48,090 nt of DNA from an uncultured bacterium (GTDB lineage Bacteria; UBP6; UBA1177; JAKLFG01), in assembly GCA_937871295.1 (NCBI GenBank), contig CALMRE010000268.1, positions 1-48,090 on the forward strand, given 5' to 3'. The notes beneath the pieces are model-generated. The model did not search any database. It worked only from the letters and a program-made list of their open reading frames with translations, and was not told where the DNA came from. Made by a program: the position numbers and the translations under genes. Positions within the stretch are counted from its first letter, which is position 1. The number at the start of each line of letters is the position of its first letter. Positions 419 through 22,680 of the stretch are shown piece after piece.

Positions 419-1594
419 TTATTTGATGAGTGCCTTCAGTCGCCATACCGCCCGTTTCACCATTCGACGGATCTTCCGTTTCATAACATCGCTATTTTTC
501 ATATAGATGCTTGCTGCCGCACGAAAAGAACCGTGTCGGAACGCGTCAAAAAATGCTGATCGGCACGCCGGTTCCGTGGCAGAATGATTCAGGTGGGCAT
601 TGTTGGCAATGCCGTGTGCGATATCGGTCTGATGGATGATCAGTGCGTTCCCGACATGAAGAAGTTCGTTGCCTTTTTTCGAGTGGGTCAACACCAGCGA
701 GGTCCCCTTGTCATCATCATATCGCGGGTACTTCGTCGCCACGCCCCAATAGTCGGCCAGTGTGATATCAGCGATACGCGGCAGGGTGTAAAAAGGACAT
801 CGGTAGCAGACCGGACGCAGGAGAACATTTTTTAGAAAGCCATGCATGAAATTATCGGCCCAATCCATAGAATGATATGTTCGTTCATTCGAGAACTCCT
901 GATGAACCTCCATGAAATTCCACCCCGTCCTCTTGTGCCGGAACGAATACTCTGTCGTTTTCGCTCCGTATTTTTCCTCCTGTTCGTTCATGTATTTCTC
1001 GAACACTCCCGGTGAGGGAACACCGTGACACACGAGATCACAGGTGGTCAAGCCCTGCGTATCGCCGCCGATGAAATTGCGCAGACCCGCCACTTGGCAC
1101 GGCGTCCCGGAAAAGAACACCTTTCGCCCCGAGCCCAGCAATTCCTTTACCTGCGGGAACACCCCGACCGTCGAACTCTGGACATACTTCGACCCTTGAA
1201 GCTGCGGCAGAGCGTCCGGAGAATCAATTCTTATATGATGGACCGCATGAAAGTCGTCGCGGAACGCCGCGCCGAAGACCACGCCGCCCTCCCGCAGGAA
1301 CTGTTTTGCCAATTCGGGGAACACCCCGCCCGACGAACTTTCCCGGCGCGTATGTTCATCGCGGCTCCATGCGGCATAGGCCGCCGGAAAGCCTTCGGCC
1401 GGTGTCGGCGCCGGCTTATTCATCACCGGACAGACGGCGGTACACTTGCCGCAGTCAGTACAGCGGGCAGCATCGCGCACCGGATACTCGAATCCTTCCT
1501 CATCCACCGTCACGGCGATACAGTTCACGGGACAGACCGGCACACAGGCCATGCACCCGCAACAATCTTTTTTCTCTCCGGTGAACAGATACAT
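419..1594 (-). CDS. Ferredoxin-domain / FrhB-FdhB C-terminal family iron-sulfur protein of a glycan cluster
   Basis: 391 residues. The N-terminus holds two [4Fe-4S] motifs: C11-x2-C14-x2-C17-x3-C21P and C45-x2-C48-x2-C51-x3-C55P. The remainder matches the coenzyme F420 hydrogenase/dehydrogenase beta-subunit family (FrhB/FdhB N and C domains), with SSSGGVFP, GTPCQVAGLR and CDLVCHGVPSP stretches. In polysaccharide loci this family is very often encoded next to a pyruvyl transferase, exactly as here, where the gene abuts the upstream pyruvyl transferase with no gap. It probably does flavin/Fe-S redox chemistry on a sugar or ketal intermediate, but the reaction is not established. It implies strictly anaerobic or low-oxygen operation. 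Family assignment is firm; substrate unknown. Confidence 0.85.
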   Translation of the reverse strand: MYLFTGEKKDCCGCMACVPVCPVNCIAVTVDEEGFEYPVRDAARCTDCGKCTAVCPVMNKPAPTPAEGFPAAYAAWSRDEHTRRESSSGGVFPELAKQFLREGGVVFGAAFRDDFHAVHHIRIDSPDALPQLQGSKYVQSSTVGVFPQVKELLGSGRKVFFSGTPCQVAGLRNFIGGDTQGLTTCDLVCHGVPSPGVFEKYMNEQEEKYGAKTTEYSFRHKRTGWNFMEVHQEFSNERTYHSMDWADNFMHGFLKNVLLRPVCYRCPFYTLPRIADITLADYWGVATKYPRYDDDKGTSLVLTHSKKGNELLHVGNALIIHQTDIAHGIANNAHLNHSATEPACRSAFFDAFRHGSFRAAASIYMKNSDVMKRKIRRMVKRAVWRLKALIK

Positions 1595-2683
1595 CTAACC
1601 CCCCAATGCCCCGGTCAAGTACCGTTGTGCCTCGGCGCGCCATTCCTTCAAACGGGAATGAGCCGCCTCCCAATCGACCGGCGTTTCCACCAGCCGAAGC
1701 AAGGTTGTTTCATCGTACGCCGCAAGAAAACGCCCGTCCAGCCCTATCCGCCCCAGCAAGGAGAGCATCCGGTCGTTCAGCGACGCCTTCTTACCGGTCA
1801 GACCGACCGTCACGAACGGTTTGCCGAAGATTATGCTGAAGACGGTGCCGTGGAACGAATTGGTCACCACGAACTTCGCGTTCCTGATATATCCTATCCA
1901 TTCGGTAGGCGACATCTTTTTCCGATGAGGATCTATCACCGGCGCCTGTAACTTATCGGCGACCAGCCGGTTCGCCTTTTCGACCCATTCCTTTTCGCGC
2001 AGGATGTAGGTGAAGAGATAGCCGCTCTCGGCGGGCGCGGTCGTTATGGCGTCGTAGTCATCCAACAGCAGGGTCGGATCGGGATGCCACGCCGCCGACC
2101 GGCCGGTGAATCTTTCGACCAGATCGGCGCCGTTCTTCTCGCGCACCGACAGCGCATCCATCTTCTTTAGCAGGCGCGTCATTTCGGCGCGGTACTCCGG
2201 CTCGATGTCGTTGCGGCCGAAACTGGCGGCATAGGCTATCCGTCTGCGGCCAGCCGGGGCGAAATCGAGATAGTAGGCAGGGTCGACGCCGACATGGATA
2301 GGCGGGTTCCATATCTGGTCACTGCCGCAGATGTAGGCATCGCACCGCGGCGGGTCGTCCCGGAGTTCGGCGAACGAGGTATAACGGCGAGGCGATACGG
2401 CAAGGAATACTTTACGGAAACTGTCGAATCCGGTTCCTTCGCTCCCCTGCGCCGAACCCCGACGCATGTTCAGCAATCTGATATACAGTGCATAGATGTT
2501 GGCCTTGATCGCGCGGCGCGACAGCGACAGGCGCAGACGACCGCCGTACAGGATATCGTCCGATCGGTAATCAATGATCCCGACCTCGTGCCCCAGCGAC
2601 CGGAGATAGGTCTGAAGCGCGTATGTCTGGAATACCGCACCGTAGTTATCGGCGTAGTGGAAGGTGATGATGCCGATCTTCAT
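1595..2683 (-). CDS. Polysaccharide pyruvyl transferase family protein
   Basis: 362 residues, full length for the WcaK/CsaB polysaccharide pyruvyl transferase family, which moves pyruvate from PEP onto a sugar as a ketal. The start MKIGIITFHYADNYGAVFQT is characteristic. GSDQIWNP lies near residue 120 and the conserved VTNSFHGTVFS segment near residue 275, the usual catalytic/binding region. It is a soluble enzyme predicted to act in the cytoplasm on lipid-linked or nucleotide sugars. It is one base from the upstream GT4 gene and abuts the downstream Fe-S protein, its standard partner in other clusters. Some members of this Pfam family are not proven pyruvyl transferases, so the reaction is inferred from family. 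Confidence 0.88.
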   Translation of the reverse strand: MKIGIITFHYADNYGAVFQTYALQTYLRSLGHEVGIIDYRSDDILYGGRLRLSLSRRAIKANIYALYIRLLNMRRGSAQGSEGTGFDSFRKVFLAVSPRRYTSFAELRDDPPRCDAYICGSDQIWNPPIHVGVDPAYYLDFAPAGRRRIAYAASFGRNDIEPEYRAEMTRLLKKMDALSVREKNGADLVERFTGRSAAWHPDPTLLLDDYDAITTAPAESGYLFTYILREKEWVEKANRLVADKLQAPVIDPHRKKMSPTEWIGYIRNAKFVVTNSFHGTVFSIIFGKPFVTVGLTGKKASLNDRMLSLLGRIGLDGRFLAAYDETTLLRLVETPVDWEAAHSRLKEWRAEAQRYLTGALGG

Positions 2684-2684
2684 C

Positions 2685-3800
2685 CTACGCCTCTATTTCC
2701 AATATCTTTTTCATCTTTTCTGCCGCACTCTCTACTGTATGGTTTTTTTGAACCGTCGCATAGGCGCTATCTCCCAATTTCTTTCTGAGATCGGCATCGG
2801 AAAGCAAGAGCGCGAGTTTCTCCGACAATGCGGCAACATCGCCCGCCTCTATCAACAAACCGTTGTCCCCATCAACGATCAAGTCGGGAATACCGCCGAC
2901 CCTCGTCGATATCGACGGAATGCCACACGCCATCGCTTCAAGAAGAGCATTGGGAAATCCTTCGAATTTTGTGGGCAGAACAAAAATATCGGTTTGCGAC
3001 AACAGCGTCGACTTTTTTTCACCCGTGACCCAACCTTCCAATAAACACACCCGGGTGAGATTCTCCTTTACTATTTTCTCCCGTAATCTTGCGGTTACTC
3101 TTCCATCGCCTGCAAAATGAACGATAAAAGGTCTCGTTTTTCCCGAACAAAGCGGGCGTACCGCATCAACGAGATCGAACACCCCCTTCGCCTCCTCAAT
3201 CCATCCCATAAAAAGGATGTTTATCGGAACCCGATCCAAGGAAAAAACATTTTTCTCGTAACGCGAGGTATCTAGCCAATTTTTTATCACGACCAACTGT
3301 TTTTCCTTCACTCCGGGAAAGGAAACAAACAGGTCGCGCCATTTCTCACCCTGACAGATTACTTTGTCAGAAATGGAAAACACGGTGTGAACATACCATC
3401 GCATTCGTCGGGAACTTTTTAAATCTTTTACAATATATCCAGATCGAGGAGCTAAGAGTATCGGGATCCTCAACGCTTTTGCCCAGATACACATCAGCCC
3501 TTTTTCAAGGAAACTGTACCCATTCCCGACGAATATCAGAGTATAATCAGGGCGATGAAATACCGTGTAAAAAAGAAAAAGAAAAACTCTGATCACTGCG
3601 AGCAAGAAGCGAATCCTCATGTTGGGCGAAGGGACAGTGGGGGTCGTCGAGTCTATTAAGCGCCATTCGACATGTTCAGATAATGAAGATTCTATCAAAG
3701 AGCGACTGGCAAAATTTAGGCCTCCGGTACTGCCATCTTTTGAGCTTTTCGCAAAAGAACCAACGAACAGAACCTTTTTCTTTTTTGTCGGACTCATCAC
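2685..3800 (-). CDS. Glycosyltransferase family 4 (GT-B)
   Basis: 371 residues, normal length for GT4. The N-terminal Rossmann half begins [21 protein letters not shown]. The C-terminal half carries [19 protein letters not shown] near residue 195 and the donor-binding [16 protein letters not shown] near residue 280, with the retaining-GT Glu-x7-Glu arrangement. It should transfer a hexose-type sugar to the growing lipid-linked oligosaccharide on the cytoplasmic face of the membrane. It overlaps the upstream acyltransferase stop by 4 bases (ATGA junction) and precedes the pyruvyl transferase by one base. The DNA is markedly AT-richer than genes beyond 18 kb, in line with an imported glycan cassette. 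Confidence 0.92.
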
Positions 3801-4387
3801 CTCTCATCTCCAGATGTGATAACTTTTCCATAGAGCTTTTGTTCGTGTTGCGCGATCTCTTCCATGACACCACGATATTTTATAATCCCTGCAGGGAACC
3901 CCGCTACTATCGCATATGGCGGAACATCTTTCGTGACCAATGCGCCAGCCGCCACGATAGCGCCACGACCGACACGAACGCCTCTTAGAATTATCGACCG
4001 TGCCCCAAACCAAGTATCATCCTCAAGGTGGACCGGCAGATCGTCGCCCGACATCTTTTCTTTTATATCAAACATATAACGCCCATCAAGAGGCGTGTTG
4101 TGCCTCCCCGTTATGATCGTTACCTTCGGGCCGAACATCACCTTGTTCCCGATAAAAATCCCCGCCTGTGTCGATCCACCGAACATCGCACCCGGACCGA
4201 TATAGACATCGTTGCCTATCGAGATGCAAGAATAGTTGAAAGAAGAAGATATCGGGAAAAAGCGCACATTCCTGCCGCAGGAGCGAAAACATGTGGAGTA
4301 GAGCCGACAAAGCAGATATTCGATGACCTTTTTTAGAAAGCCTGCCGCCTTCAAGGTCACGCGGATCGGCGATGAAATAATGTTCAT
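3797..4387 (-). CDS. Hexapeptide-repeat (LbH) O-acyltransferase, WbbJ/maltose-acetyltransferase type
   Basis: 196 residues. Left-handed beta-helix repeats such as [17 protein letters not shown] and [17 protein letters not shown] run from about residue 50. The catalytic His lies in the GRHNTPLDG loop near residue 115, followed by [32 protein letters not shown] in the usual C-terminal coil order. Such enzymes acetylate a sugar hydroxyl from acetyl-CoA as trimers. It overlaps both neighbours by 4 bases (GT4 upstream ending 4384, GT4 downstream starting 3800), so the three are translationally coupled. Position suggests O-acetylation of the repeat unit. The exact acyl donor and hydroxyl cannot be told. 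Confidence 0.9.
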
Positions 4388-5502
4388 GATTTTCTCCCCT
4401 CTATCACGGCAACATAACTTTTCAGAAAATGGTCGCCACCGAATAATTCTTCTGCCATTCTACGCGATTCTTGTCCCATTGCCTCTCTCTCTTCCGGAGA
4501 CAATACTATGAATTTATTAATTGCTTCTGCAATGGAAGTGGGATCTTGCGGATCGAAAAGAAAACCGTTCTTTCCTTCTTTCACCAATCGCGCATGGTCG
4601 CAGACATTGCTTGCCAAGATCGGCTTACCGCACGCCATCGCCTCACAGATTACATTGGGAAATCCTTCTATAAAAGAAGGAAGCATCACAGCATCGGCAG
4701 AATGATAAACTCTAATGATTTCTCGCACCGGTTCGTGGAGCAAAAACACGGCCTCCAAGTTGCGGTCCTTTATAGCCGACAAAGTATCAAGATAACATTG
4801 GGACCTCGGTGTCGGATAGCCATTCTCAAAAAGATTGTTGCCATACCACGAGATATGTACTTTCGCCAACAAGTTCTTATGAAGAAGATGGTGAAGAGCC
4901 GCGACTACATTGGCGGGATTCTTTTTTTTCTGGAAACTAGCCACTATTATTATCTCAACATCATCTTTTCTTATCGGCTTCGAGGTAACGACCGTCGAAA
5001 ACTTGGTTAGATCGACTGTGTTGATGATGGTATTCACTTTACTCTCTAGTCGCGGAGCCATTTTCTTCAGTTTATCAGAAAAGTCCCAAGAATTGCAGAC
5101 CACGACATCGGCAAGACGATGCAGGTGGAAGCTGACTCTATATCGCATGGAGAGTGTCGGAATACCCACTCTTTCGGACACGATAACACGCCAGTTTCCC
5201 CAGATACCGCATATTTCATTGACGATATTTGGAAAGTTAAGGTAAGAGATTACGGCGATTGGGGCTATTTTTATGATCTCCCGACAGATTCGACAGAAGC
5301 GAAGAACTTTAGATTTTCCATATACAGAGACATGTCGAATGCCGACATCGGCAAGATCATTGTTGAAGAATTCATCGACCTTGAAGTAGGTTATCAATGT
5401 CACCTCATACCCTGCCTTGTCCAGCACATTGCAAAGATAGACCATCTGTCGTTGGGCGCCACCGGAACCAAGCGAATCGATAAGACAAACTATTTTTTTC
5501 AA
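4384..5502 (-). CDS. Glycosyltransferase family 4 (GT-B)
   Basis: 372 residues. It starts [19 protein letters not shown], the glycine-rich acceptor-side loop of GT4 enzymes. [17 protein letters not shown] lies near residue 185 and [18 protein letters not shown] near residue 280, the retaining GT-B donor-site signature; [16 protein letters not shown] follows. Likely a cytoplasmic, membrane-associated transferase extending the repeat unit. Its ATG overlaps the stop of the polymerase gene by 4 bases, and its own stop overlaps the acyltransferase start by 4. AT-rich codon use resembles the neighbouring Wzy and GT genes and differs from the GC-rich conserved genes elsewhere in the window. Confidence 0.92.
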
Positions 5503-6701
5503 GCCAATCCCTCTTGCTCAGTCCTTTCTTCTAGTTTAGCCGATAACCAAACGACCATCAATAAATTACCCTTCTCATAATAACTCACCATCCCCACATC
5601 GAGGGCCAAAATCAGCAATAACAAAACAAAATAAAGTACATTCCCCGCTACTTTATTCATCATATAGGTGCGCAAAATCAAGAAATAACCCAAGTAATAT
5701 AGTGTGAAACCTATAAGACCAAGGCATGCAAGCAATTCCATTATATTATTATGCGCATAAGCTCCCCCGGTAAAATAGCGAAAAGCATTGACCCCCACGC
5801 CGATAAAAGGATTGTCCAGAAATACCGCTCCTGCTTTTTGCGCCAACAATATTCTGCCTTCCGTGCTTGCTTCCATCTCCTCTTCTTCACCGCTAAATCC
5901 ATCCATCATTCTATCGGCCCTATCAATGGAGTATTCTATTACTTCCATCTGACCTTCTGAGAAAAAGGTATCGTAGAAAACATAGAAAATACTTAGAATA
6001 ACCAATGAAAATAATAGTATTCGGCGAGGTTTGGCAAATTGCGTTATCAGAAATATCGCGGCCAAGATAACAGAAAAGAAAATACCTTTTCGACTACCGG
6101 TAAGAAACGAAACATACAGGGCAAATATTATATTAATTACGGCAACTACCTGTATGTACCTGTTATTATACAAACGAAGGAAAACCAAACTTGCAAAAAT
6201 ACTGAACATCATGGCAATACCTAATTGATTCGAATTAGGAAAGGTGCCTCCGAATCTTAAACTCCTATAAATTTCGTAACTCGGCGTGTACACACCCAAG
6301 GCAATCAGATAGTTGAAAAAAGCACCAACAACTACGCCGCTCAACATCCAATGAGAAATTCGATACCGTTTAAGCAAAGCATATATTAAAAAGTTATTCA
6401 AACACACTTGTACTAGTGTGATATTGGTATTATAAGAAACCTCCGGCAATGACGACCAGAAAAAGCTAAGAAAAGAAAAAAAGACAAACACCCCGTACGA
6501 CAACAAATAGCCGTTGAATGGTATTTTGTAGTTTCTGTTGAGAATGCTGTCTGCCAAAAAAACAAAAACCAACAACAAGTTAAGAGCATTGCGGTATTGA
6601 ACATTGCTCTCCTGCTGGAAAATGATTTGTCCCGCCATATAGACAAGCAACAAAAAACCTGTTGCTACTTGCCATTTGGCTCTCGGCAATGATTCCATCA
6701 T
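5499..6701 (-). CDS. O-antigen polymerase / ligase family membrane protein (Wzy-like)
   Basis: 400 residues with about ten hydrophobic segments spread from residue 15 to 390. Family landmarks are GGTFPNSNQLGIA near residue 150, FLTGSRKGIFFS near residue 200, and a periplasmic loop ending in NPFIGVGVNAFRYFTGGAYAHNN near residue 300, the Wzy_C/O-antigen-ligase signature including the conserved AHN. It should polymerise flipped repeat units on the periplasmic side of the inner membrane. A large acidic loop (GFSGEEEEMEAST) precedes that motif. It lies 4 bases after the ATP-grasp gene and overlaps the downstream GT4 by 4. WaaL-like ligase function cannot be excluded from sequence alone; the operon position beside Wzx and GTs favours polymerase. 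Confidence 0.88.
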   Translation of the reverse strand: MMESLPRAKWQVATGFLLLVYMAGQIIFQQESNVQYRNALNLLLVFVFLADSILNRNYKIPFNGYLLSYGVFVFFSFLSFFWSSLPEVSYNTNITLVQVCLNNFLIYALLKRYRISHWMLSGVVVGAFFNYLIALGVYTPSYEIYRSLRFGGTFPNSNQLGIAMMFSIFASLVFLRLYNNRYIQVVAVINIIFALYVSFLTGSRKGIFFSVILAAIFLITQFAKPRRILLFSLVILSIFYVFYDTFFSEGQMEVIEYSIDRADRMMDGFSGEEEEMEASTEGRILLAQKAGAVFLDNPFIGVGVNAFRYFTGGAYAHNNIMELLACLGLIGFTLYYLGYFLILRTYMMNKVAGNVLYFVLLLLILALDVGMVSYYEKGNLLMVVWLSAKLEERTEQEGLA

Positions 6702-6705
6702 GATC

Positions 6706-7815
6706 CTACGGCTGTCTTATGTTTATATGAAGCAGCTCTTCCAAAATACAGGTCTGAGGCCAAAAATGGCCCTCTATAAAATTCCCCGCTCTATCCCAGT
6801 GGCCCGGGCAATTATATATTGCGGTATCATTATACGAATAACTCATCTCGCAGAACTCGATACCGCCGCTCTCATTCTTCAGAAAGTCATAGGCCATCGA
6901 CTGGAATTTCAATTCAGCGGAAACCTTAAAGGCAACCTCCAGACAGCGTTTGTCGATTTTGTTTTGATCGTAGTCTATCTTGCCGCTGCCCGATGAGCGA
7001 AAGTCATTTTTTCGATTCATTCTGCGAAAGGCAAAGGCGCGATCGCCAATGACCGTAATGCGGGTGTCGAAGGCATTGCCCGGAAGGAACTTTTGGAAAA
7101 GAGCATAGTTCTTATGGGGGAGATAGCCTTCCATAGGGTCTTCGCCACGGAAACTTCTCATTATATTAAGAAGATGCCATTTGATGGTCTTAATGAAACT
7201 GGAGGGATGGAACCATACATTGTCGGCACTGGGCACATGCCATTGTCGAATCCCCTTCCCGAACATGGCCTTTATCAACTTTATCGCCTCGGCTCTTTTC
7301 CTTACCAGCACCACGTTAGACGAGCCTGCCCCCCCTTTGAGTTTGAACACAACAGGATAGCGAGCTTCAGTCTCGGCCCAATGAAGGGCCTCCTGTTTAT
7401 TCCAGAAAATCCATGATTCGGTGTAGGGAAGATCGTGTGCTTTGCAAAGAAGATATTGGCTGATTTTATCATCGTAGTGCCAAGATGTACTCCAATCCGG
7501 GAAGACTCTGACCCCTATTTCGCGCTCCCATATCTGTGTAAGGATCGGCGCTAAAAGGTAATGATCATCCGTGAGATTTCTGCGAAAGATCACCGTATCT
7601 TCTTTTGTGATCGACCACATTTCGGAGGGTAACAGCGGAAGAATGTTATGAGGTATATCATTAATTGCAAGAAGTTCTAGGAATTTTCTGTTAAAAGAAG
7701 CAACCTCTTTCTTGTCTTTACTGCCATCAATCACTATCAATACTCGCAACGCCGTCTCCATCCAATTGTAAATAGCATTGCCATCAACTTGTTGTATCTC
7801 GCTGTCTTCTGTCAT
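6706..7815 (-). CDS. ATP-grasp family protein of the glycan operon
   Basis: 369 residues from the ATG at 7815; a TTG two codons upstream (7821) and an ATG at 7761 are alternative starts. The 7761 start would avoid the 32-base overlap with the preceding gene, but no start has a strong Shine-Dalgarno. YPVVFKLKGGAGSSNVVLV near residue 130 is the ATP-grasp glycine-rich lid. FDTRITVIGDRAFAFRR and the C-terminal GIEFCEMSYSYND supply the Arg and acidic metal-binding positions. ATP-grasp enzymes activate a carboxylate as acyl phosphate and join it to an amine or thiol. In a polysaccharide operon the likely job is to amidate a carboxyl-bearing sugar, or to attach an amino acid to one. Substrate unknown. 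This is the natural partner for a lactyl-sugar made by the MurA/MurB homologues. Confidence 0.8.
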   Translation of the reverse strand: MTEDSEIQQVDGNAIYNWMETALRVLIVIDGSKDKKEVASFNRKFLELLAINDIPHNILPLLPSEMWSITKEDTVIFRRNLTDDHYLLAPILTQIWEREIGVRVFPDWSTSWHYDDKISQYLLCKAHDLPYTESWIFWNKQEALHWAETEARYPVVFKLKGGAGSSNVVLVRKRAEAIKLIKAMFGKGIRQWHVPSADNVWFHPSSFIKTIKWHLLNIMRSFRGEDPMEGYLPHKNYALFQKFLPGNAFDTRITVIGDRAFAFRRMNRKNDFRSSGSGKIDYDQNKIDKRCLEVAFKVSAELKFQSMAYDFLKNESGGIEFCEMSYSYNDTAIYNCPGHWDRAGNFIEGHFWPQTCILEELLHINIRQP

Positions 7816-8962
7816 AATCAAAAGCGCGAACGGTAGTTATCAATCCATGCAACAGGTCTCCGATCCAGCACCCCATTGAGAAAGAAGCCACACGATATAT
7901 GGCCTCATAACGGGGTAACGCCGAACGAATATCAAAATGATCAATAAAAAATTTCTTGGAAAAATGACTGTATTCTTTTCGTTTTAAGGAATCGTTTGTC
8001 AGTTCAGCGATCATCGCGATAGTCTGTTGTTCGCTATAATCTATTAACACATTGCGCGGGGAGAAGTTGGTAACCATGAGCGCCTCAACATTTTCCTTGT
8101 TCACCAGCACCGGCATCGCAGAACCCGCAAGAGGCGTCAAAAGAACCTTTCCCTTTGATGCCGCTTCCTGTATCGAACGCCCTGTCCCCACGACCAGATC
8201 GGCGGCAGGAACGAGTTCTGCCGCGTTCAGGGTAAAGTGAGAATCTGTCAGGAAATGGACCTCCAATCCTTGCGCCATCTTTTTTAATTCTTCAAGTACC
8301 GGTTGATCTTCGACAACACCCACCAGAACGAGTGCGTGACGCGCGCCACGATTCGTCAACTCATTAGAAAGACGGATGGTTTGGCGGAATGATTCGGCAT
8401 ATGTATTGCCGATCCGCGCGATACGCATGAGTACGGGCGCACCTTTCGCAAGGGCGCGAACCTCCGCGACGCGGGCGGGGTCTTCCGGTGGTTCAACCGC
8501 TCTATTTGGTATCAAGTGAAGCGCCGTTTTTCTAAATTTCGGCTGGGCGCGGAAATAGTCGTAATTCTCTTTGCTGAAACAGATCAGTGTTTTTGCGAAC
8601 GGATACCACCGGGTCGGGTTGGGTCCCCCTGCTTTGGTGTGAACAAGCGGCAAACGATAGCGCAGTGCGGCAATTCGTGCAAAGAAAAGGGCTCGAGTAT
8701 CGAAGGAATGAATTATGTCGGGCTTGACCTCATTGATTTTATGCAAAATATCCCTGATTACATTAATTGTTTTCTTCCCGTTGTAAAAAATATATTCTGT
8801 TTTTACATTTGATTGACGAAAAATTGCCAGCGGCAGTACGCCTATGCAGAGAATACAAACATCTCCTATGGCTACCATGGTTTCGGATATAGTCTTCAAG
8901 CTCATCGCATGTCCGCCTTGTCCATGTCCCCTTGTGCTAGTTATTAAATAAAGAATTTTCAT
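7784..8962 (-). CDS. Glycosyltransferase family 4-like
   Basis: 392 residues. It begins MKILYLITSTRGHGQGGHAMS, a GT-B opening, and has PDIIHSFDTRALFFARIAA near residue 95, typical of GT4. LMRIARIGNTYAESFRQTI lies near residue 190. The donor-site segment is GTGRSIQEAASKGKVLL rather than the common EGFPxxxLEAMACG; the Glu is kept but the subgroup is divergent. It abuts the MurB-like gene with no gap and its 3' end overlaps the ATP-grasp gene. Predicted to add one sugar of the repeat unit on the cytoplasmic face. Family call good, specificity unknown. Confidence 0.82.
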   Translation of the reverse strand: MKILYLITSTRGHGQGGHAMSLKTISETMVAIGDVCILCIGVLPLAIFRQSNVKTEYIFYNGKKTINVIRDILHKINEVKPDIIHSFDTRALFFARIAALRYRLPLVHTKAGGPNPTRWYPFAKTLICFSKENYDYFRAQPKFRKTALHLIPNRAVEPPEDPARVAEVRALAKGAPVLMRIARIGNTYAESFRQTIRLSNELTNRGARHALVLVGVVEDQPVLEELKKMAQGLEVHFLTDSHFTLNAAELVPAADLVVGTGRSIQEAASKGKVLLTPLAGSAMPVLVNKENVEALMVTNFSPRNVLIDYSEQQTIAMIAELTNDSLKRKEYSHFSKKFFIDHFDIRSALPRYEAIYRVASFSMGCWIGDLLHGLITTVRAFDYDRRQRDTTS

Positions 8963-9820
8963 CTAAACTACTTGCTGTTCCAGTTCGAGTTCCACGCCGT
9001 ATCTTTCCCGCACCTTTTGCTGAATATGGGCCACGAGCGCAAGGATATCGGCGCCGGTTGCGCCACCGGAATTCACAACGAATCCAGCATGTTTTGGCGA
9101 CACTTCGGCCCCGCCGATGCGATATCCCTTCAAATTCAATTCCTCTATCATCTGACCAACGAATCGCCCCTGAGGTCGCTTGAAAACACTACCGGCACTG
9201 GGCATATCCCACGGCTGTTTGCAGTGCCGCTCTTCACGGATGCAATTCATTTTCTCTGTTATCGCCGCGTTATCTCCCCGCGAAAGACGGAACACCGCGC
9301 GGGTGATGACCGCCGACATCTTCTGAAAGGCGCTCTGCCGGTAGCCGTAAGCAAGTTCCTCTTTTCTCGCGGTCCGTAGGGTGCCGGTCGCGGTATCGAC
9401 CCATTCGACCGATTCGAGGAGCGACCACAGATCGCCATCGTAGGCACCGGCGTTCATATAGACACCGCCGCCGACCGTCCCCGGAATATCCCAGAATATC
9501 TCCATTCCCGCGAGTCCCGCGTCGCGTGCCGTTTCACTGAGCTGTTCGAGCGTTGCCCCCGCCTGTGCCGTTATCCGGTCATCGGTCACCGTGATGGTGC
9601 TCATCTCCTCGCGGATGAATACAAATATCTCTTTTTCATAGCGCGGTTTAGAGAAGATGAGATTGCTGCCATTACCGAAAAAGAGTATCGGGTCGCCGCG
9701 ATGTTGGGCGCAGAGGGCGACGAGATCGGCCGCGTTCTGAGGAAAATAGGCACGGTGAACGGTTGCCGGTATCCGGTATGTGTTGTAGTTGGTCAGGTCA
9801 AGGTTCTCGCGATATATCAT
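8963..9820 (-). CDS. murB: UDP-N-acetylenolpyruvoylglucosamine reductase homologue (MurB)
   Basis: 285 residues, within the usual MurB range. MurB is an FAD enzyme reducing the enolpyruvyl ether of UDP-GlcNAc-enolpyruvate to the lactyl ether UDP-MurNAc with NADPH. NTYRIPATVHRAYFP opens the FAD domain. GNGSNLIF (49-56) and DIPGTVGGGVYMNAGAY (111-127) bind flavin and phosphates. YGYRQSAF supplies the active-site Arg near 161. SAGSVFKRP holds the catalytic Ser near 211, and GVELELE near 275-281 supplies the acid. All expected catalytic residues are present, so it should be active. It overlaps the flippase gene by 4 bases and abuts a GT4, placing it inside the surface-glycan operon rather than a division/cell-wall cluster. 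It may serve peptidoglycan, a muramic-type surface sugar, or both. Confidence 0.93.
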   Translation of the reverse strand: MIYRENLDLTNYNTYRIPATVHRAYFPQNAADLVALCAQHRGDPILFFGNGSNLIFSKPRYEKEIFVFIREEMSTITVTDDRITAQAGATLEQLSETARDAGLAGMEIFWDIPGTVGGGVYMNAGAYDGDLWSLLESVEWVDTATGTLRTARKEELAYGYRQSAFQKMSAVITRAVFRLSRGDNAAITEKMNCIREERHCKQPWDMPSAGSVFKRPQGRFVGQMIEELNLKGYRIGGAEVSPKHAGFVVNSGGATGADILALVAHIQQKVRERYGVELELEQQVV

Positions 9821-11052
9821 GCCGTCTGCGGTGTCCTAAAGGTTAAGCGGTAGTAGTCCCAAGTATAATAAAGTGCGGCAAAGGCATAACAGACGCTGGA
9901 GGCTATCGCCGCTCCGATAATACCAAGCCGAGGGATCATGATGATGTTGGCGGCGATATTGGCTAGAGCCGAAACGGAAAAGACCTTCATCGCGACAAGC
10001 GGAAATCCACGCGCGGCGAGGTCGCCGTTCAATAGTTTAAAAAATACCATAAGATAGGTGCCGGGGAGCAGAATTATCAGCGCGGTAGATGCAGAGACAA
10101 ATTCGCTTCCATAGAAGAAAGGAATAAAATAAGGGGCGGCAACACCAATAAAAACAATGAGTGGAAGGGTAGCAATCATGAGTTTTAATGTGTTCTGCCA
10201 CAACTTGTGAGAAAAAACCACAGGGTCTTTAGATGACACACTGTAAGAAAAAATTATCGATTTCAGGACATCAGGAATGGTCCATAAAAGAAGCGATAAT
10301 GACATTGCCACCGAAAAGATACCAACATCCTTTTTGTCCATGAAGTGATTGATAATCAAGACATTCGCCCGATAGTTGAGACTCATTACAAAAAGAGGCA
10401 ATGCAAATTCGAAGCCCTTGCGGACAACAGGCCACCCTTTTTCTTTAAATAATTTGAAGTCAAAAACAAAAAAACGGTAACCTTCAATATTCCGCACCCA
10501 CAAATAAGCGTGTAGCGCATTGGCGAGGTTAGAAATTAGAACTATCAAGAAATAGGTCACAAGGCCGCCATTAAGAAACAGCACAAAGACCACTACCAAC
10601 ACGAATTCGACGATGACCGGGATGATCTCTGCGTAATTGAGTTTGGCGATATTTCGTTGAGATAGTGCAAACGCATTGGTCGAGCCAATGTAACGTTGGG
10701 GAAAAATAGAGGCAAGGACCAGCAGTGTGATGATCCAGTTAGAAAGGATATCCTGTTCATAATAGATGATGACTAGGGCTATCACGGAAATGAACGAGGT
10801 CAACAGGTAGAGTATGGATTGAATACTGGAAATATCTTGAATGGAATAGCCTTTTTTAGACATGAAATAAGAAAAAGAACTGGTGGCGCCCCAATTTGTT
10901 AGGGAAAGGATTAGTTGCAAAGAAACAAAATAGACGGCGATGAGACCGCGCCCTTCGGCACCTAAACAACGTGCGACGATGACGCCCATCACGAATGACA
11001 ATCCCAGATGAAACGCCTTTATAAGCAAGGAACGGATAAAATCTCTTTTCAT
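9817..11052 (-). CDS. Polysaccharide flippase (Wzx-like, MOP superfamily)
   Basis: 411 residues with about twelve hydrophobic segments, the length and topology of Wzx/RfbX-type flippases. The N-terminus MKRDFIRSLLIKAFHLGLSF runs into GVIVARCLGAEGRGLIAVY, where the LGAEGRG motif is conserved in polysaccharide exporters. RANVLIINHFMDKKDVGIFSVAMSL in the middle and LLPGTYLMVFFKLLNGDLAARG toward the end also fit. It should move undecaprenyl-linked repeat units from the cytoplasmic to the periplasmic face for the Wzy-like protein encoded downstream. It starts one base after the acetyltransferase stop, and its stop overlaps murB by 4. AT-rich base composition. Confidence 0.92.
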   Translation of the reverse strand: MKRDFIRSLLIKAFHLGLSFVMGVIVARCLGAEGRGLIAVYFVSLQLILSLTNWGATSSFSYFMSKKGYSIQDISSIQSILYLLTSFISVIALVIIYYEQDILSNWIITLLVLASIFPQRYIGSTNAFALSQRNIAKLNYAEIIPVIVEFVLVVVFVLFLNGGLVTYFLIVLISNLANALHAYLWVRNIEGYRFFVFDFKLFKEKGWPVVRKGFEFALPLFVMSLNYRANVLIINHFMDKKDVGIFSVAMSLSLLLWTIPDVLKSIIFSYSVSSKDPVVFSHKLWQNTLKLMIATLPLIVFIGVAAPYFIPFFYGSEFVSASTALIILLPGTYLMVFFKLLNGDLAARGFPLVAMKVFSVSALANIAANIIMIPRLGIIGAAIASSVCYAFAALYYTWDYYRLTFRTPQTA

Positions 11053-11053
11053 A

Positions 11054-11575
11054 TTATTTCTGTAGCGGTTTTGCCGGAGCGCCGGCGGCGATACAGTCAG
11101 GCGGTATATCTTTTGTTACCAGTGCGTGGGCACCGATCACCGAATTTCTTCCCACACGAACATTGCCGATTAGGGTGACACCGGAATAAATAGTAACCCC
11201 ATCCTCAATGACCGGATACTCTTTGGGACGATCCTTTCTTCCCGACGAACCGAAGGTAACATGCTGAAATACGGTGCAATTGTCGCCGATGACGGTTCTG
11301 TCGCCGATCACTATGCCTATGGGGTGTGCAACTTTAAAGTTTTTTCCTATCTGTGCCTTGAGGGAAACCTCGCTACTGAAAAATATGAGGTAATGATACT
11401 TGATAAAAATGGTAAACAGTCTGAGCAAGGGAATCCTTCTTAAAAGACACCCGAGTCGGTAAAGAAACACGAATTGGAATCTCGGATCAAAAAAGAAAGT
11501 AATGATCGAAGACCAAAGGCTCTCCTGCATCCGGTAAAAGCGGATATCTGATAGGACGGCTTCCCTAAAGCTCAT
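11054..11575 (-). CDS. Serine O-acetyltransferase-like hexapeptide acyltransferase
   Basis: 173 residues. A short helical N-terminal part is followed by a left-handed beta-helix. AHPIGIVIGDRTVIGDNCTVFQHVTFG around residues 85-110 is the CysE-type active-site coil. IYSGVTLIGNVRVGRNSVIGAHALVTKDIPPDCIAAGAPAK closes the helix. Family members transfer acetyl from acetyl-CoA to serine or to sugar hydroxyls. CysE-like proteins of this short form are common in exopolysaccharide clusters, where they are probably sugar acetyltransferases. It starts 11 bases inside the murA homologue and ends one base before the flippase, so it is translationally coupled to both. True cysteine biosynthesis seems unlikely in this setting, but cannot be excluded. 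Confidence 0.87.
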   Translation of the reverse strand: MSFREAVLSDIRFYRMQESLWSSIITFFFDPRFQFVFLYRLGCLLRRIPLLRLFTIFIKYHYLIFFSSEVSLKAQIGKNFKVAHPIGIVIGDRTVIGDNCTVFQHVTFGSSGRKDRPKEYPVIEDGVTIYSGVTLIGNVRVGRNSVIGAHALVTKDIPPDCIAAGAPAKPLQK

Positions 11576-12809
11576 GGATGTTCCCTTGCAAATAAGTGAT
11601 TTTTTCCACTATGCTCTCATATCCCCGTTCGACCTGCTCGAAATTGGTGATGGTCGTTTTGCCATCGGCGCACAGCCCGGCAAGCACCAGCGCGGCACCA
11701 GCGCGCAAGTCGAGCGCGGTCACGGCCGTCCCTTTCAGCTTCTTGCCACCCGTCAGTTTCAGCATATCGCCCTGCACCGAACTCTCCGCCCCCATCTTCT
11801 TTAACTCTTCGACATACTGGAACCGCCCCGAAAAGCGCAGATCGACGATGCGGCTTTCGCCCTTTGCCATCAGCCCGTACACCGCGAAGAGCGGCTGCAT
11901 ATCGGAATTTATCGCCGGATAGGGACCGGTCGCGATATCCACCGGATAGATCGCCGAGGGACGGACGATGATGCTGTTGCGGTCCTGCGCGATGAAGTAT
12001 CTCAGCCCCGATTCACGCAGATGGATAAGCGGCACTTCCAAATGATCGAAGGGAAAATTCCGTATCTCCACCTCACCGCCGGTCACCGCCGCCGCGATGA
12101 GAAAAGTGATCGCCTCCATATTGTCGGGAATGCAGGTGTAGGCGCATCCGTGCAGTTTTTCGACCCCTTCCACTACTATGGATTCCTGTCCGTTAACCGT
12201 AATCTTGGCCCCCATCGCGCGGAGCATGGCGATAAGGTCGAGTATCTCGGGACGCACATGGGGATTCCAGATGGTGGTGGTTCCCTTTGCCAAGGTTCCC
12301 ATGAGTATGCCGTTCTCGGTAGCGCCGGTGGAGCGGATGGATAGCCGTATGTCGGCTCCTGTCAACCGTCCTTTTGACTTTGCACAGAGATAGCCCGCCT
12401 CTTCCCATACCTCCGCCCCGAGCGTTCGCATGGCCATTTCGTGCAGGTCATATTTCCGCTCGCCGAGATCGCAGCCGCCCGGTAGCGGTACCCGCCCCTC
12501 ACCGTGACGGGCGAGGAGTGAGCCAAGCATAAGCAGGGTGTTGCGAATGGTGCGGCCATCCCATGAAAGTTCTGTTTTTGGTTTTTGGTCGGTGACGGTA
12601 AGGGTATTTCCCTGCACGGCTATCTTCTTGCCTACCTTTTCCAACATCTCGATCTGAGTCCGAACATCAAGGATATTTGGAATGTTACGAAGGATAACCG
12701 GTTCTTCGGTAAGAAGCGAGGCCACCAGAAGACGAAGCGAACTATTCTTCGCGCCGGAGACATCGACCGTGCCGGTGAGTCGGGACCGTTGTACCGAAAC
12801 TGTCTTCAT
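11565..12809 (-). CDS. murA: UDP-N-acetylglucosamine 1-carboxyvinyltransferase homologue (MurA)
   Basis: 414 residues. MurA transfers enolpyruvate from PEP to the 3-OH of UDP-GlcNAc. The active-site set is complete: Lys21-Asn22 in SGAKNSSLRLL, Arg in GRTIRNT near 86-89, the fosfomycin-target Cys113 in LPGGCDLGERKYDLH, Asp in AINSDMQPLF, and the C-terminal VERGYESI. The loop reads CDLGERKYDLH where E. coli has CxIGARPVDLH, so it is a divergent subgroup. The start is set by GGAGGGG at 12813-12819; an open frame runs upstream to 12959 but lacks family similarity. It is the first gene of the 13-gene glycan operon, with a TTGACA-N16-TAGAGT promoter just upstream. Paired with MurB in the same operon, it could make a dedicated muramic-acid-type sugar. 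Confidence 0.92.
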   Translation of the reverse strand: MKTVSVQRSRLTGTVDVSGAKNSSLRLLVASLLTEEPVILRNIPNILDVRTQIEMLEKVGKKIAVQGNTLTVTDQKPKTELSWDGRTIRNTLLMLGSLLARHGEGRVPLPGGCDLGERKYDLHEMAMRTLGAEVWEEAGYLCAKSKGRLTGADIRLSIRSTGATENGILMGTLAKGTTTIWNPHVRPEILDLIAMLRAMGAKITVNGQESIVVEGVEKLHGCAYTCIPDNMEAITFLIAAAVTGGEVEIRNFPFDHLEVPLIHLRESGLRYFIAQDRNSIIVRPSAIYPVDIATGPYPAINSDMQPLFAVYGLMAKGESRIVDLRFSGRFQYVEELKKMGAESSVQGDMLKLTGGKKLKGTAVTALDLRAGAALVLAGLCADGKTTITNFEQVERGYESIVEKITYLQGNIHEL

Positions 12810-12832
12810 GTGCCCCTCCATACGAGCGCTTA

Positions 12833-12860
12833 ACTCTAGCAAAAACGGTGCGGTTGTCAA
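12833..12860 (-). promoter_or_regulatory. Predicted promoter of the murA-led glycan operon
   Basis: On the minus strand, TTGACA (12860-12855) is followed after 16 bases by TAGAGT (12838-12833). Transcription would begin near 12826 and leave a leader of about 17 bases containing GGAGGGG before the murA ATG at 12809. The -35 box is perfect and the -10 matches at four of six positions. It faces away from the promoter at 12989-13016, so the two transcription units are divergent. Confidence 0.55.
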
Positions 12861-12988
12861 AGAAAGAGGGAGATCATTCACAAACGCGCGGCACGCGTCA
12901 TGTCGGTTTGACAATCGAATGGTTTCAAATGTTGCGAGGGCCTCGATACCGGACAACAAGTATCCGAATATATTTTACATAAATTAAG

Positions 12989-13016
12989 TTGACAGACTCT
13001 TAATTCTGTTTATTAT
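12989..13016 (+). promoter_or_regulatory. Strong predicted promoter of the FG-GAP protein gene
   Basis: TTGACA (12989-12994), 16-base spacer, TATTAT (13011-13016). The predicted start is near 13023, with a leader of about 32 bases including the ribosome binding site GGGAGGA at 13044-13050, four bases before the ATG at 13055. This is one of the best consensus matches in the window. Confidence 0.7.
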
Positions 13017-13054
13017 GAAGCTATGTTCATTGACGGATTGAGAGGGAGGATACG

Positions 13055-16000
13055 ATGAGAAATGTACTTGTTATTTTGAGTGTGCTCTTCGGGCTGACGG
13101 CCTTGTACGCCGTGGACTACTGGCCCGAACGGGTTTATAACGGCGCAAGAAGTGGTCGTTCAACAGGCGATGGAAATATCGCTGTGCCCGAGGTGGCCTG
13201 GAAACTGCCGATGGGAGGAGGTTTTAATGATCGCACTCTCTTGATGGAAGGAAGTGTTTATTCTTCACCGGCATTTGTCTTTGTACAAGGGGGCCATATA
13301 TTCAAAAAAAACGGAAGCGGTCATCTTCTTTGGGATGCCGGGAACATCGGGGCCACCTCTCTTGCCGGACGATGGGATTTAAATGGAGATGGTCAAGAAG
13401 AACTCGTAGTATTTGGAAACAACTACCAATGCTACATAGTATCTGCCTCTACTGGTGAACTTTTTTCGGAACTTCTTCCCTGCGGCGTTCCTTTGAAAAC
13501 AATTGACATTGACAACAATGGAACGTTGGAAATAGTCACTCGAAATCTTTGGTCGGTAGTCGGGGTGCGGGCTTACGATTTCACCGATGGCCTCTCAAAT
13601 CCCAAGGTGGCATGGACGACCGCTGAGAATCTGACCAACAACGGGTTCGAACTTGCCTTTGGCGATCTGGACGGCGACGCGTTAACTACCGAGTTGGCCA
13701 TCGACATCAACGACTATGCGAAAATAACGGTGCTTGATGCAAAAACCGGTGAAGTTCGTCGAGCGCGTACGACCCCTTCGGTATTCGGCAAGTTCAGTTA
13801 TGGTCCCAACCTCATCGTGGATGTGGATGGCGTTGCTCCGGCCGAATTTATTTTCTCGGGAATGGTTGCCACCTATGGGAACCGTGGATCTCTGGGCATA
13901 TCGGTCTATGATTATGTGACCGACAGTTTCAAATGGCAATACGAATACGGTCAGAACACCGGCGATGTAAAAGTAGAGTTCATCCCCGAAGCGGTAGCCG
14001 ACCTGGATGGCGATGGTCTGCCCGAAGTGGCGATCTCTGTCTATAACAACACGCTTGAACTGACACGGGTCAACAACAAACAGGTACCTGCGGAAAAGGA
14101 CGGTATCAATGAGCCGAATCGGTGGGTGACCGCCGTGTATCGCGCCGCTGACGGTATTCTTAAAGGATACATCACCGATGCCTACATTCAGACCGTAGCC
14201 GACCTGACGGGAGACGGCATCCCCGAGTTGGTGGTAAAGCGGACGGTGGCGGGGAACAGTACGATTCCCGTTTATGGGGAAATAATGGCCTATCGTTTAA
14301 TGCCTGATGGAGCTTTGACTCAAGTGTGGTCCGCATCGAACCTTTCATTACTTGAATGTTCGAGGGAAACCAAATCATCGATCGACGACTATCGCGCCCA
14401 CAAACAAAGTTGCCTAAAAGATATGGACGGTAACGGCAGTTCGGATCTTATAGCGGTACGCGACAACAACAACGATGGCAAGCCCGAGGAGGTTGTTGCT
14501 CTGTCGGCGGCAACCGATATTCCCTTTGTTTCTCGGATCACCGCGCTAAGCAATGATGAAGAGGCTCTTGTAGTAAAAGTCGAAACAGGGGCCGTCTGTC
14601 TTTCCCGAAATAGCGGTGTGGTACAATGCGTTGATCTGTCTGGATCAAGTCCCACTGTCATAGTCTCTATTCCTGCTAATAACCACACGGGAAGCGCGGT
14701 GGTTTTTCCTCATAAGGGATCTGCCCGTCTCCTCACCACCGATGCGCGAAAGCGGCTGTCTCTTTGGAATCCATCGGCGGCCAACCCCTTAACCGCTCCT
14801 ACCATGCTCTGGTCTCTTTCAAACACGGTTAATCAGGAGTTGTTCTCTGTTCAACCAACGGCGGGGGGCAGTTACAATATATTGAGGAATACACTTACCT
14901 CTCTGGGTGCCCCTCGTATTGAGTTTCGATCTGCTACCGGCGCCCTTGTGTGGGGAAAAGATTTCCCCGGTGCGGTTATTCAACCAAACAGTTTCGTCAG
15001 CGGCAATTTCGGCGGGGGCACATCCCGGGATATCGCGGCATTCATAGATTTTGGTGGGAACCATCCGACCGTTCTTGCCTTTGAGGCAACCAACGGAAAT
15101 TCTCTTATGAATTTCGAAAATCCCGATACCAGCCGTTATCAAAAAGCGACTCTTGTGACAGTACCAAATGCCGTGGGATTGGATACTCTATTCGTTATTA
15201 GCGAAGGAACTGGAGAGGTTCTCGATCCCGCAACTTCTACCCGTCTTACTACGCTTACGCTGGGCAGGTTGAACCGTAACGGATTTTCCGCAGACCTTGA
15301 TGGCAATGGGGTTTATGATTTGTTCGGCAATCAGTCATTCGATCAGAAGCGCATCTTGCGTCCTGACAACTCGGTGTTGTGGGAATTTCCTTTCAGTGCC
15401 GGCTCTTCCTACTATAATTACTACATGAATCATGCCGGACTTGCCGACATTGACACCAATCCGGGGCTCGATGTGGCGCTGGGCGGTCAGTACGGCGATC
15501 TGTCGGCCTATTCGGGGCTGGACGGGACGGCGCTGTGGAAGCGCTGTCTCTATCTCGGGATGGCGATAGATCTGCCGGTCGATTCGTTCCTGACCCGCAC
15601 CGATTGTCCCGGATCGAAACTCTCCAACATCGCCTCGGGCGATATCGACGGTGACGGGCTCGAGGAGTTCGTGGTGGGCAGTCCCGACGGCTATCTGTAT
15701 GTGGTCAACACCGAGGATGGAAGCCTCGCGTGGTCGTATCTTTTCGACTACGCGGTGGGCAATCCGATACTCGCCGATGTGGACAACGACGGGAAGATAG
15801 AGGTGGTGGTCGGCGTCGCCGACGGCTATCTCTATGCGATCGATCAGAAGAAGTACACCGCCCCCATTCCGGCCCGCGAAGCAGTGATAAAGAACGGTAA
15901 GATACAGAATCCCAACACCGACATTGACGCGCAGTCCTACGCCGGGCAGATCGGCGTGGCGTGGAGTCCGGTCTTCAAGGCGAAGGGGTACGATGTCCGT

Positions 16001-18023: not shown

Positions 18024-19280
18024 CTACAGCCGTGCCGTGACCTGTTTTTTATCGAGGATCGATTTCACATCGAAGAGGACGGCATCTTTCTTGAGGAGCG
18101 CGGGGATGTCGAGGTCTTTGAATTCATTGTGGGAAACGGCGAGGACCACGGCGTCGTAGGGTCCGGCGGGCTTTTTGACGGGGTGGATGTCGTACTCTTC
18201 CACTATTTCTTCGGGTTCCGCCACCGGGTCGTAGACATCAATGGCGCAGCCGAAATCGGCGAGTTCGCGGATGATGTCGATGACGCGCGAGTTGCGGATG
18301 TCGGGGCAGTTCTCTTTGAAGGTCATGCCGAGGACGAGCACTTTCGCGCCGAGTATCTTGGCGCCGTTGCGGCTCATGAGTTTCACCACTTTCTGCGCGA
18401 CGAAGTTCCCCATGTTGTCGTTGATGCGGCGACCGGCGAGTATCACTTCGGGGTGGTAGCCGAGCGATTCGGCTTTATGGGTCAGGTAGTAGGGATCGAC
18501 GCCGATGCAGTGGCCGCCGACGAGTCCGGGGCGGAACGGGAGGAAGTTCCATTTGGTCCCCGCCGCTTCGAGCACTTCGACGGTGTCGATGCCCATCCGT
18601 TCAAAGATGAGCGCCAGTTCGTTGACGAAGGCGATGTTGATGTCGCGCTGGGAGTTCTCGATGACTTTGGCCGCTTCCGCCACTTTTATCGATGAGGCTT
18701 TGTAGGTGCCGGCGGTGACGATGGAGCGGTAGAGCGCGTCGACCTTCTCGGCCGCCTCCGGCGTCGAGCCGCTGGTCACTTTCTTTATGGTGGTGACGGT
18801 ATGGACCTTGTCGCCGGGATTTATCCGTTCGGGGGAGTAGCCGCAGAAGAAATCTTTGTTGAATTTGAGTCCGCTGCCCTTCTCAAGTATCGGGACGCAG
18901 TCCTCTTCGGTACAGCCGGGGTAGACGGTCGATTCGTAAACGACGATGTCTCCTTTCTTGAGCACCTTCGAGACCGTTTCGGTCGCCTTCACCACCGGGG
19001 TGAGATCGGGCCGTTTGTAGATGTCAATGGGGGTCGGGACGGTGACGATGTAGATGGCGCAGGGGCGGATATCGTCGAGTTCGGCGGTATAGGTGAGATG
19101 CGTGGCCGCTTTGAGGCCGTCGGGCGACACCTCGCGGGTGCGGTCGTGGCCGCTTTTCAGTTCGGCGATGCGCTCTTTTTTTATGTCGAAGCCGACCACG
19201 GGACGAACCTTCCCGAATTCGACCGCGAGCGGCAGGCCGACATAGCCGAGCCCGATGATGGCGATGGGTGCGTGGGTCAT
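18024..19280 (-). CDS. tviB: UDP-N-acetylhexosamine 6-dehydrogenase (TviB/WbpO type)
   Basis: 418 residues, full length. It oxidises C6 of UDP-GlcNAc or UDP-GalNAc to the uronic acid with two NAD+. [19 protein letters not shown] is the N-terminal NAD-binding loop. [18 protein letters not shown] marks the TviB/VipA/WbpO subgroup; WecC/ManNAc dehydrogenases differ there. [10 protein letters not shown] lies near residue 150. The catalytic Cys lies in [12 protein letters not shown] near 265, and [17 protein letters not shown] is the C-terminal UDP-binding part. It is last in the aminotransferase-MaoC-CitE-acyltransferase-dehydrogenase operon, 21 bases after the acyltransferase. It supplies an acidic sugar to the surface glycan. 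Whether GlcNAc or GalNAc is used cannot be read. Confidence 0.92.
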
Positions 19281-19301
19281 GGGGACCTCCGTTGAGAACG
19301 G

Positions 19302-19952
19302 TTACCTTTGTTTCAGAAGTTTCGCGGGATTGCCGACAACGATGCTGTTCTCCGGCACATCGTTGAGCACCACCGATCCGGCGCCGATCAGACTGAAATC
19401 GCCGATCTTCACCTTTTCCCGGATGGTGGCGTTACTGCCGATATGTACCGCCTTCCCGACCAGCACATTGGCCCCGATGACGCCGTTGGTCGCCACATGG
19501 GCGAACCGTTCGAGCGTGCTGTCGTGACCCACGAACGAGTTGGGGAGCAGGATGCAGTTGTCGGCTATGGTGGTGTCGGGCGACAACTGGCACAGCGGCG
19601 AGAAGAGACACCCGTTCCCGATCTTCGCGTAGCCCTTGGGAATGATGGCGGTATGGTGTATCAGCGTCGCGAAACGGTCGGGGGGAATGGGGAGGGTCTC
19701 AACCTTATGGAAGGTCGCCTTTTCGTTCTGCAGGCCCACATAGGCGATGAAGAAATAGCAGTTCTCCCGTACATATTTCTCGACATCTTCGGTCGTTCCG
19801 ATGACCGGTATCTTTTTGTATTTCCCTACCTCGGAGCCGACCGGGAGCGCGTCGTTGAGAAAGCCGGCGACCTCATAGTACCCCAATGAATCGGCGACCG
19901 ATGCGGCGATCATGCCGATGCCGCTGCCGCCGAGAATGACCAGTTTTTTCAT
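19302..19952 (-). CDS. NeuD/PglD/VioB-like sugar N- or O-acyltransferase
   Basis: 216 residues. An N-terminal Rossmann-like domain (KKLVILGGSGIGMIAASVAD) is followed by a left-handed beta-helix. The catalytic His is likely in ATLIHHTAIIPKGYAKIG near 110, with LLPNSFVGHDSTLERFAHVATNGVIGANVLVG and the closing SLIGAGSVVLNDVPENSIVVGNPAK after it. PglD, NeuD and VioB acylate amino sugars or sialic acids from acyl-CoA. Because the operon starts with a VioA-like aminotransferase, N-acylation of dTDP-4-amino-4,6-dideoxyglucose is the best guess. The acyl donor may be made by the adjacent CitE and MaoC proteins. It overlaps citE by 4 bases. Confidence 0.88.
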   Translation of the reverse strand: MKKLVILGGSGIGMIAASVADSLGYYEVAGFLNDALPVGSEVGKYKKIPVIGTTEDVEKYVRENCYFFIAYVGLQNEKATFHKVETLPIPPDRFATLIHHTAIIPKGYAKIGNGCLFSPLCQLSPDTTIADNCILLPNSFVGHDSTLERFAHVATNGVIGANVLVGKAVHIGSNATIREKVKIGDFSLIGAGSVVLNDVPENSIVVGNPAKLLKQR

Positions 19953-21300: not shown

Positions 21301-21314
21301 CTCTTACTCCTTTA

Positions 21315-22463: not shown

Positions 22464-22488
22464 TTCAATTCCTCTCCGGTACCGCGCG

Positions 22489-22516
22489 ATTATAAAGGGG
22501 AGGAAATGCAAAGCAA
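22489..22516 (-). promoter_or_regulatory. Promoter of the aminotransferase-MaoC-CitE-acyltransferase-tviB operon
   Basis: On the minus strand TTGCTT (22516-22511), 16-base spacer, TATAAT (22494-22489). Predicted start near 22482, giving a leader of about 20 bases with GGAGAGGA before the ATG at 22463. The block GGTTTTCTTGCTTTG spanning the -35 is repeated exactly at the rfbA promoter (26718-26745), so the two operons may be co-regulated. Confidence 0.65.
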
Positions 22517-22528
22517 GAAAACCGAATT

Positions 22529-22553
22529 GTAGGGGCGAATCTTGTGTTCGCCC
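22529..22553 (+). repeat. GTAGGGGC-type palindromic unit 5
   Basis: GTAGGGGCGAATCTTGTGTT then CGCCC. The arms GGGCGAA and TTCGCCC pair. It is preceded by ACCGAATT, like unit 6. Confidence 0.7.
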
Positions 22554-22586: not shown

Positions 22587-22599
22587 GCAAAACCGAATT

Positions 22600-22625: not shown

Positions 22626-22680
22626 TGAATAAATTGGATACCAATAAATACCGGGCGTGCCTGCAGCGTCGTTGGAAGGA

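Follow-up and report, generated by a model that had tools for sequence, protein, structure and literature searches.

Here, we analysed a window of 48,090 nucleotides (the whole stretch of DNA under study; contig CALMRE010000268.1, our C268) from the 99% complete genome (G000) of an uncultured bacterium of the UBP6 lineage. The window encodes a close-packed run of 12 genes on the minus strand (positions 419–12809), where a preliminary description of this DNA had counted 13. As described there, this is a Wzx/Wzy-type operon with a MurA homologue as gene one and a MurB homologue as gene four; coordinates and reading frames were correct, and neighbouring genes abut or overlap with junctions of 11 bp, 4 bp and 0–1 bp. 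We propose that the two enzymes belong to a mobile module, a gene cassette that recurs in other phyla, which provides a surface polysaccharide with a nucleotide sugar of the lactyl-ether (muramic) type (probability about 0.74), and that their probable role lies in decoration of the outer coat, not in wall synthesis. The features are as follows:

11565..12809, minus strand: MurA paralogue (UDP-N-acetylhexosamine (UDP-HexNAc) enolpyruvyl transferase), operon gene one, of a distinct glycan-cassette subfamily
11054..11575, minus strand: hexapeptide acyltransferase, serine-acetyltransferase-like, EpsC/CysE family below cut-off; gene two of the conserved cassette
9817..11052, minus strand: Wzx-type flippase (Polysacc_synt), kept in the cassette
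8963..9820, minus strand: MurB paralogue, type II enolpyruvyl reductase with intact R161, S211 and E281
7784..8962, minus strand: GT4-type glycosyltransferase after MurB, candidate transferase for the lactyl sugar
6706..7821, minus strand: RimK/LysX-like ATP-grasp ligase, candidate amino-acid ligase acting on a glycan carboxylate
5499..6701, minus strand: Wzy polymerase / O-antigen ligase family protein
4384..5502, minus strand: GT4 glycosyltransferase
3797..4387, minus strand: hexapeptide acetyltransferase
2685..3800, minus strand: GT4 glycosyltransferase
1595..2683, minus strand: weak CsaB-like polysaccharide pyruvyl transferase family protein
419..1594, minus strand: ferredoxin/F420-hydrogenase-beta-like protein, the final operon gene inside the window
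12833..12860, minus strand: promoter-like TTGACA-16-TAGAGT with an extended -10 TG, identified by consensus match only; lies 24 bases ahead of the MurA start
18024..19280, minus strand: TviB-type UDP-N-acetylglucosamine (UDP-GlcNAc) 6-dehydrogenase, located upstream in another gene block; several cassette loci have a relative of it before MurA

The ATG of murA at 12809 has a GGAGG ribosome-binding sequence. The TTGACA-16-TAGAGT element is the best promoter-like match on the minus strand, and comparable consensus matches were not rarer in shuffled sequence.

Both proteins score as genuine family members. The operon MurA clears the NCBIfam equivalog TIGR01072 (407 bits vs a cut-off of 393), and the operon MurB clears NF010480 (281 vs 259 bits) and TIGR00179 (210 vs 144.5 bits). 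The active-site residues listed in the preliminary description are all in place, with K21/N22, C113, D303 (SDMQ) and R395 (RGY) of MurA corresponding to K22/N23, C115, D305 and R397 of the Escherichia coli enzyme and R161, S211 and E281 of MurB to E. coli R159, S229 and E325. The MurA-family residue set K22, N23, C/D115, R120, D305, D369, R371 and R397 is complete and invariant across the subfamily, while MurB has the catalytic triad, the flavin adenine dinucleotide (FAD) domain and the MurB_C domain of a type II enzyme, again with catalytic residues invariant in the subfamily. The exchange of N233 for Arg in MurB was considered as a mark of specificity and dropped, as the two closest PDB MurB chains aligned (3tx1, 1hsk) also have Arg.

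The genome encodes second copies of both genes, as a search suggested in the preliminary description revealed. A separate murA lies at G000:C140:9491-10777 on the minus strand and a separate murB in a murC-murB-ddl cluster on G000:C190; a third EPSP-family match is AroA. The operon genes are thus neither sole copies nor located in a division and cell wall (dcw) cluster, and they do not group with the wall copies of their lineage. A binning artefact is unlikely, because the contig also encodes a PurM that shares 98% identity with its counterpart in a same-genus genome (87–89% within the same family), which assigns the contig to this lineage. No cassette of this kind was found in the same-genus genome.

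The operon MurA shares about 45–60% identity with the other members of its subfamily, compared with 30–41% for 60 other MurAs. The subfamily has members in the window's own phylum and in Bacteroidota, and further ones are carried by alphaproteobacterial plasmids. A scan of 84,980 genomes recovered relatives with 58–62% identity in six Bacteroidota only, each of which also has a normal MurA at 33–35%; sampling of orders yielded four further members, and plasmids of Rhizobium, Agrobacterium and Qingshengfaniella carry members at 54–57%. Occurrence is sporadic (4/399, 4/391 and 1/396 sampled genomes, counts that each include the genome used as centre, and 2/28 in the own phylum), and because the scans matched short exact patterns or covered sampled sets of genomes, statements on absence and rarity hold only approximately. 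Phylogenetic trees of MurA and MurB, likewise suggested in the preliminary description, place the operon copies outside the housekeeping clades. In quick MurA tree searches without bootstrap, on 75-odd sequences representing part of the full family, 15 subfamily MurAs fell on one side of a branch with a support of 96 in the Shimodaira–Hasegawa-like approximate likelihood ratio test (SH-aLRT), apart from the 60 other MurAs, which include the copy of the own genome and those of the six cassette-bearing Bacteroidota. Support rose to 100 when the divergent same-order member L015 (G015) was included. The housekeeping MurA of the window's genome groups with its own phylum.

The cassette MurBs split into two clades (support 100/100), both apart from the sampled housekeeping MurBs of their own hosts. 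One clade comprises the window, L015 and seven Bacteroidota and the other the plasmids and G1052, so that exchange of modules has taken place within cassettes as well. In the six cassette-bearing Bacteroidota, the housekeeping MurB is of the other structural type, with about 340 residues vs 285 for the cassette MurB, and the 285-residue cassette type is also present in five of these six genomes. Another MurB with 38–41% identity to the operon MurB (L069/L095; G020:C77:1930-2832) was not counted as cassette because it groups with the MurB of a Lachnospiraceae metagenome-assembled genome (MAG; L144) and the same-order MAG has 6% contamination; it is probably foreign DNA.

A MurB is encoded near MurA in 14 of 16 subfamily members, and the surrounding gene order is conserved between phyla. 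The order MurA-acyltransferase-Wzx-MurB of the window recurs in L038, L039, L041, L135 and L138, and in L036 and L037 with the acyltransferase missing; the same GT4 comes next in all seven loci except L039. In L137, the same genes appear as MurA-MurB-acyltransferase-Wzx-glycosyltransferase, i.e., with MurB shifted beside MurA. The GT4 after MurB shares 28–32% identity with eight cassette homologues, nine loci in all. Among the plasmid versions, Agrobacterium sp. MA01 has MurB-MurA-polymerase inside a plasmid polysaccharide locus, and the set on the Qingshengfaniella plasmid consists of no more than MurA, MurB, a GT2 and an acyltransferase-like gene, flanked by unrelated plasmid genes. Homologues of the ATP-grasp protein occur in L135 (36%), in L138 (40% over 266 residues) and, weakly, in L037; none turned up on plasmids. 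A sequence profile of this protein gave no PDB match, and its AlphaFold model, which is weak (mean predicted local distance difference test score 56) and usable at fold level only, matches LysX/ArgX/RimK, synapsin and D-Ala-D-Ala ligases. In L136 (G1004:C8), a subfamily MurA with 45% identity lies behind TviB and TviC genes without MurB nearby; its product could possibly be an enolpyruvyl rather than a lactyl sugar, or the housekeeping MurB could be used. Within the operon region (419–13500), the guanine plus cytosine content of the middle part is 43–50% vs 60–63% in adjacent parts of the window, in keeping with horizontal acquisition.

We infer the following route from the gene content. MurA would transfer the enolpyruvyl group of phosphoenolpyruvate to the 3-hydroxyl of a UDP-HexNAc, in the simplest case UDP-GlcNAc. 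Reduction by MurB to the lactyl ether would then yield UDP-N-acetylmuramic acid (UDP-MurNAc), or a sugar closely akin to it, separately from peptidoglycan synthesis. The best candidate for adding this acidic sugar to the lipid-linked repeat unit is the GT4 encoded beside MurB, after which the unit would be flipped by Wzx and polymerised by Wzy to give the surface polysaccharide. An amino acid may be attached to a carboxylate, in amide linkage, by the ATP-grasp ligase. The predicted sugar may be MurNAc or an altered HexNAc or uronate, of a muramic, an isomuramic or another type. As the same gene set travels between unrelated bacteria, these "cell-wall" genes probably serve the outer coat. The second copies, the trees and the recurrence of the glycan-gene cassette in other phyla thus lend support to the surface-glycan role suggested in the preliminary description, with a lactyl sugar as the predicted constituent of the glycan.

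The loop GERKYDLH, earlier described as divergent from housekeeping MurA, is indeed so: P121 of E. coli MurA is replaced by Lys in 14/15 subfamily members and in 0/60 other MurAs. With reference to the pocket residues listed for PDB 1UAE (PMC10816260), V161R, V163T and the pair T326L and V327R are present in 15/15 members, R327 also in L015, and each of K121, R161, T163, L326 and R327 in at most 6/60 other MurAs; further changes are A186H and E188R. The window MurA has K121, T163 and R327, which none of the 60 other MurAs shows, in place of the housekeeping-type UDP-GlcNAc-binding residues P/R121, V163 and V/I/M327. These fixed changes suggest that selection has favoured another substrate, another handling of the product or altered regulation. 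It is conceivable, though clearly less probable than our proposal, that the subfamily MurA has been re-tooled for UDP-N-acetylglucosaminuronic acid (UDP-GlcNAcA), UDP-N-acetylgalactosaminuronic acid (UDP-GalNAcA) or UDP-N-acetylgalactosamine (UDP-GalNAc), in which case the product would be a uronic or galacto sugar with a 3-O-lactyl group and not MurNAc. The changes lie in or next to the UDP-GlcNAc pocket and several add positive charge, but some of the altered residues contact UDP and not the sugar. TviB/TviC-type genes, whose products convert UDP-GlcNAc to UDP-GlcNAcA/GalNAcA, directly precede MurA in L036 and L041 and lie upstream in L135 and L136; TviC alone occurs in L037 and L038, other dehydrogenase-epimerase pairs in L137, L138 and L133, and the window TviB scores above its cut-off. 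However, clusters of this sort commonly contain UGDH and epimerase genes, the best TviC match in the own genome reaches only 33%, and neither a dehydrogenase nor an epimerase gene lies close to the MurA-MurB-GT2 set of Qingshengfaniella. The fuller version, in which a re-tooled MurA and MurB make a di-acidic 3-O-lactyl HexNAc uronic acid (or GalNAc-type) nucleotide sugar, possibly linked to an amino acid by the ATP-grasp ligase, in a module that spreads between phyla, appears somewhat doubtful to us.

Alternatively, the operon genes could be backup or booster copies for peptidoglycan, like MurA1/MurA2 of Firmicutes, with an incidental position in the operon. Kept catalytic residues and passed equivalog cut-offs would fit, yet the pair is accompanied in three phyla by genes for Wzx, Wzy and glycosyltransferases, is sporadic, falls outside every sampled housekeeping clade and coexists with intact housekeeping copies, which makes this explanation improbable. 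That the operon holds the only murA and murB, relocated by rearrangement, as the preliminary description had offered, is refuted by the second murA and murB with phylum-typical sequences on C140 and C190. Several points weigh against a module for muramic-type sugars. With the pocket altered in the entire subfamily, the acceptor may not be UDP-GlcNAc. MurB is missing from the vicinity of MurA in L040 and L136, and the ATP-grasp gene is present in four examined loci only. To our knowledge, the glycan structure is known for none of the cassette-bearing strains found here. Moreover, the capsule locus of Vibrio vulnificus, studied by Nakhamchik and colleagues in 2010, reportedly carries the paralogues murA(CPS) and murB(CPS), which are said to work in E. 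coli although the capsule does not require them, so that necessity is not guaranteed in such loci.

Annotation pipelines label the cassette genes as peptidoglycan enzymes, which would mislead work on wall biology and drug targets as well as pathway reconstruction. The signature R161, T163, H186, R188 and R327 provides a simple marker for glycan-type MurA that could make lactyl-ether sugars predictable from sequence. The glycan-type enzyme may also differ in drug response. Asp replaces Cys at position 115 in 15/15 housekeeping MurAs of the own phylum and the cassette-bearing Bacteroidota (loci L083–L088), including the host's copy on C140, whereas the operon MurA has Cys, as have the glycan-type MurAs of the sampled cassette-bearing Bacteroidota. 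Asp at this position confers natural fosfomycin insensitivity, and in the own lineage and the sampled cassette-bearing Bacteroidota fosfomycin might therefore block the glycan enzyme only. Such selectivity would make the function of glycan MurA directly testable.

Elsewhere in the window, the TviB dehydrogenase gene is part of a row on the minus strand (18024–22784) that further encodes a NeuD acyltransferase, a citrate-lyase-beta-like protein, a MaoC-like hydratase and a DegT aminotransferase, and that looks like a pathway to an unusual acylated amino sugar. Cys-rich proteins in which the motif GNG..D.GE.C recurs, together with VWA-like proteins that have calcium-type repeats, are encoded at 27824–29413 (minus strand) and 37696–44391 (plus strand) and would represent large secreted surface proteins.

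The operon MurA and MurB share fold, catalytic residues and equivalog-level profile scores with the housekeeping enzymes and differ from them by their separate clade, altered UDP-sugar pocket and glycan-operon context. NikO, the nikkomycin enolpyruvyl transferase (PDB 4FQD), is also a MurA-fold paralogue with a non-wall use, but it is far less similar to the operon MurA (140 bits vs 290–296 for the E. coli and Enterobacter cloacae MurA structures), and we know of no MurB-Wzx context for it. Literature searches on MurA/MurB in O-antigen loci gave no direct match, and mentions of 1-carboxyethyl groups in reviews of Alteromonas exopolysaccharides referred to pyruvate ketals, not lactyl ethers. 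Sugars of the predicted kind are nevertheless known end products, such as N-acetylisomuramic acid in Proteus penneri 62 and 4-O-lactyl glucose in Shigella dysenteriae O-antigens, for which the relevant excerpts of the source name no biosynthetic genes (PMC10609480), and MurNAc in surface glycans of Yersinia ruckeri, P. penneri and Psychrobacter arcticus (PMC4515632). The capsule of V. vulnificus ATCC 27562 contains N-acetylmuramic acid with amide-linked serine, and its locus was proposed to be horizontally acquired (PMC7247339). The window operon, although from a different phylum, follows the same idea as this capsule locus, with MurA/MurB paralogues and a possible amino-acid ligase in a Wzx/Wzy locus beside intact housekeeping copies. 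The paralogues reported from V. vulnificus lower the novelty of our proposal, which we regard as a widespread variant of a known idea; new here are a MurA subfamily marked by its own pocket residues, its occurrence across three phyla, plasmids among them, and the conserved cassette in which it travels.

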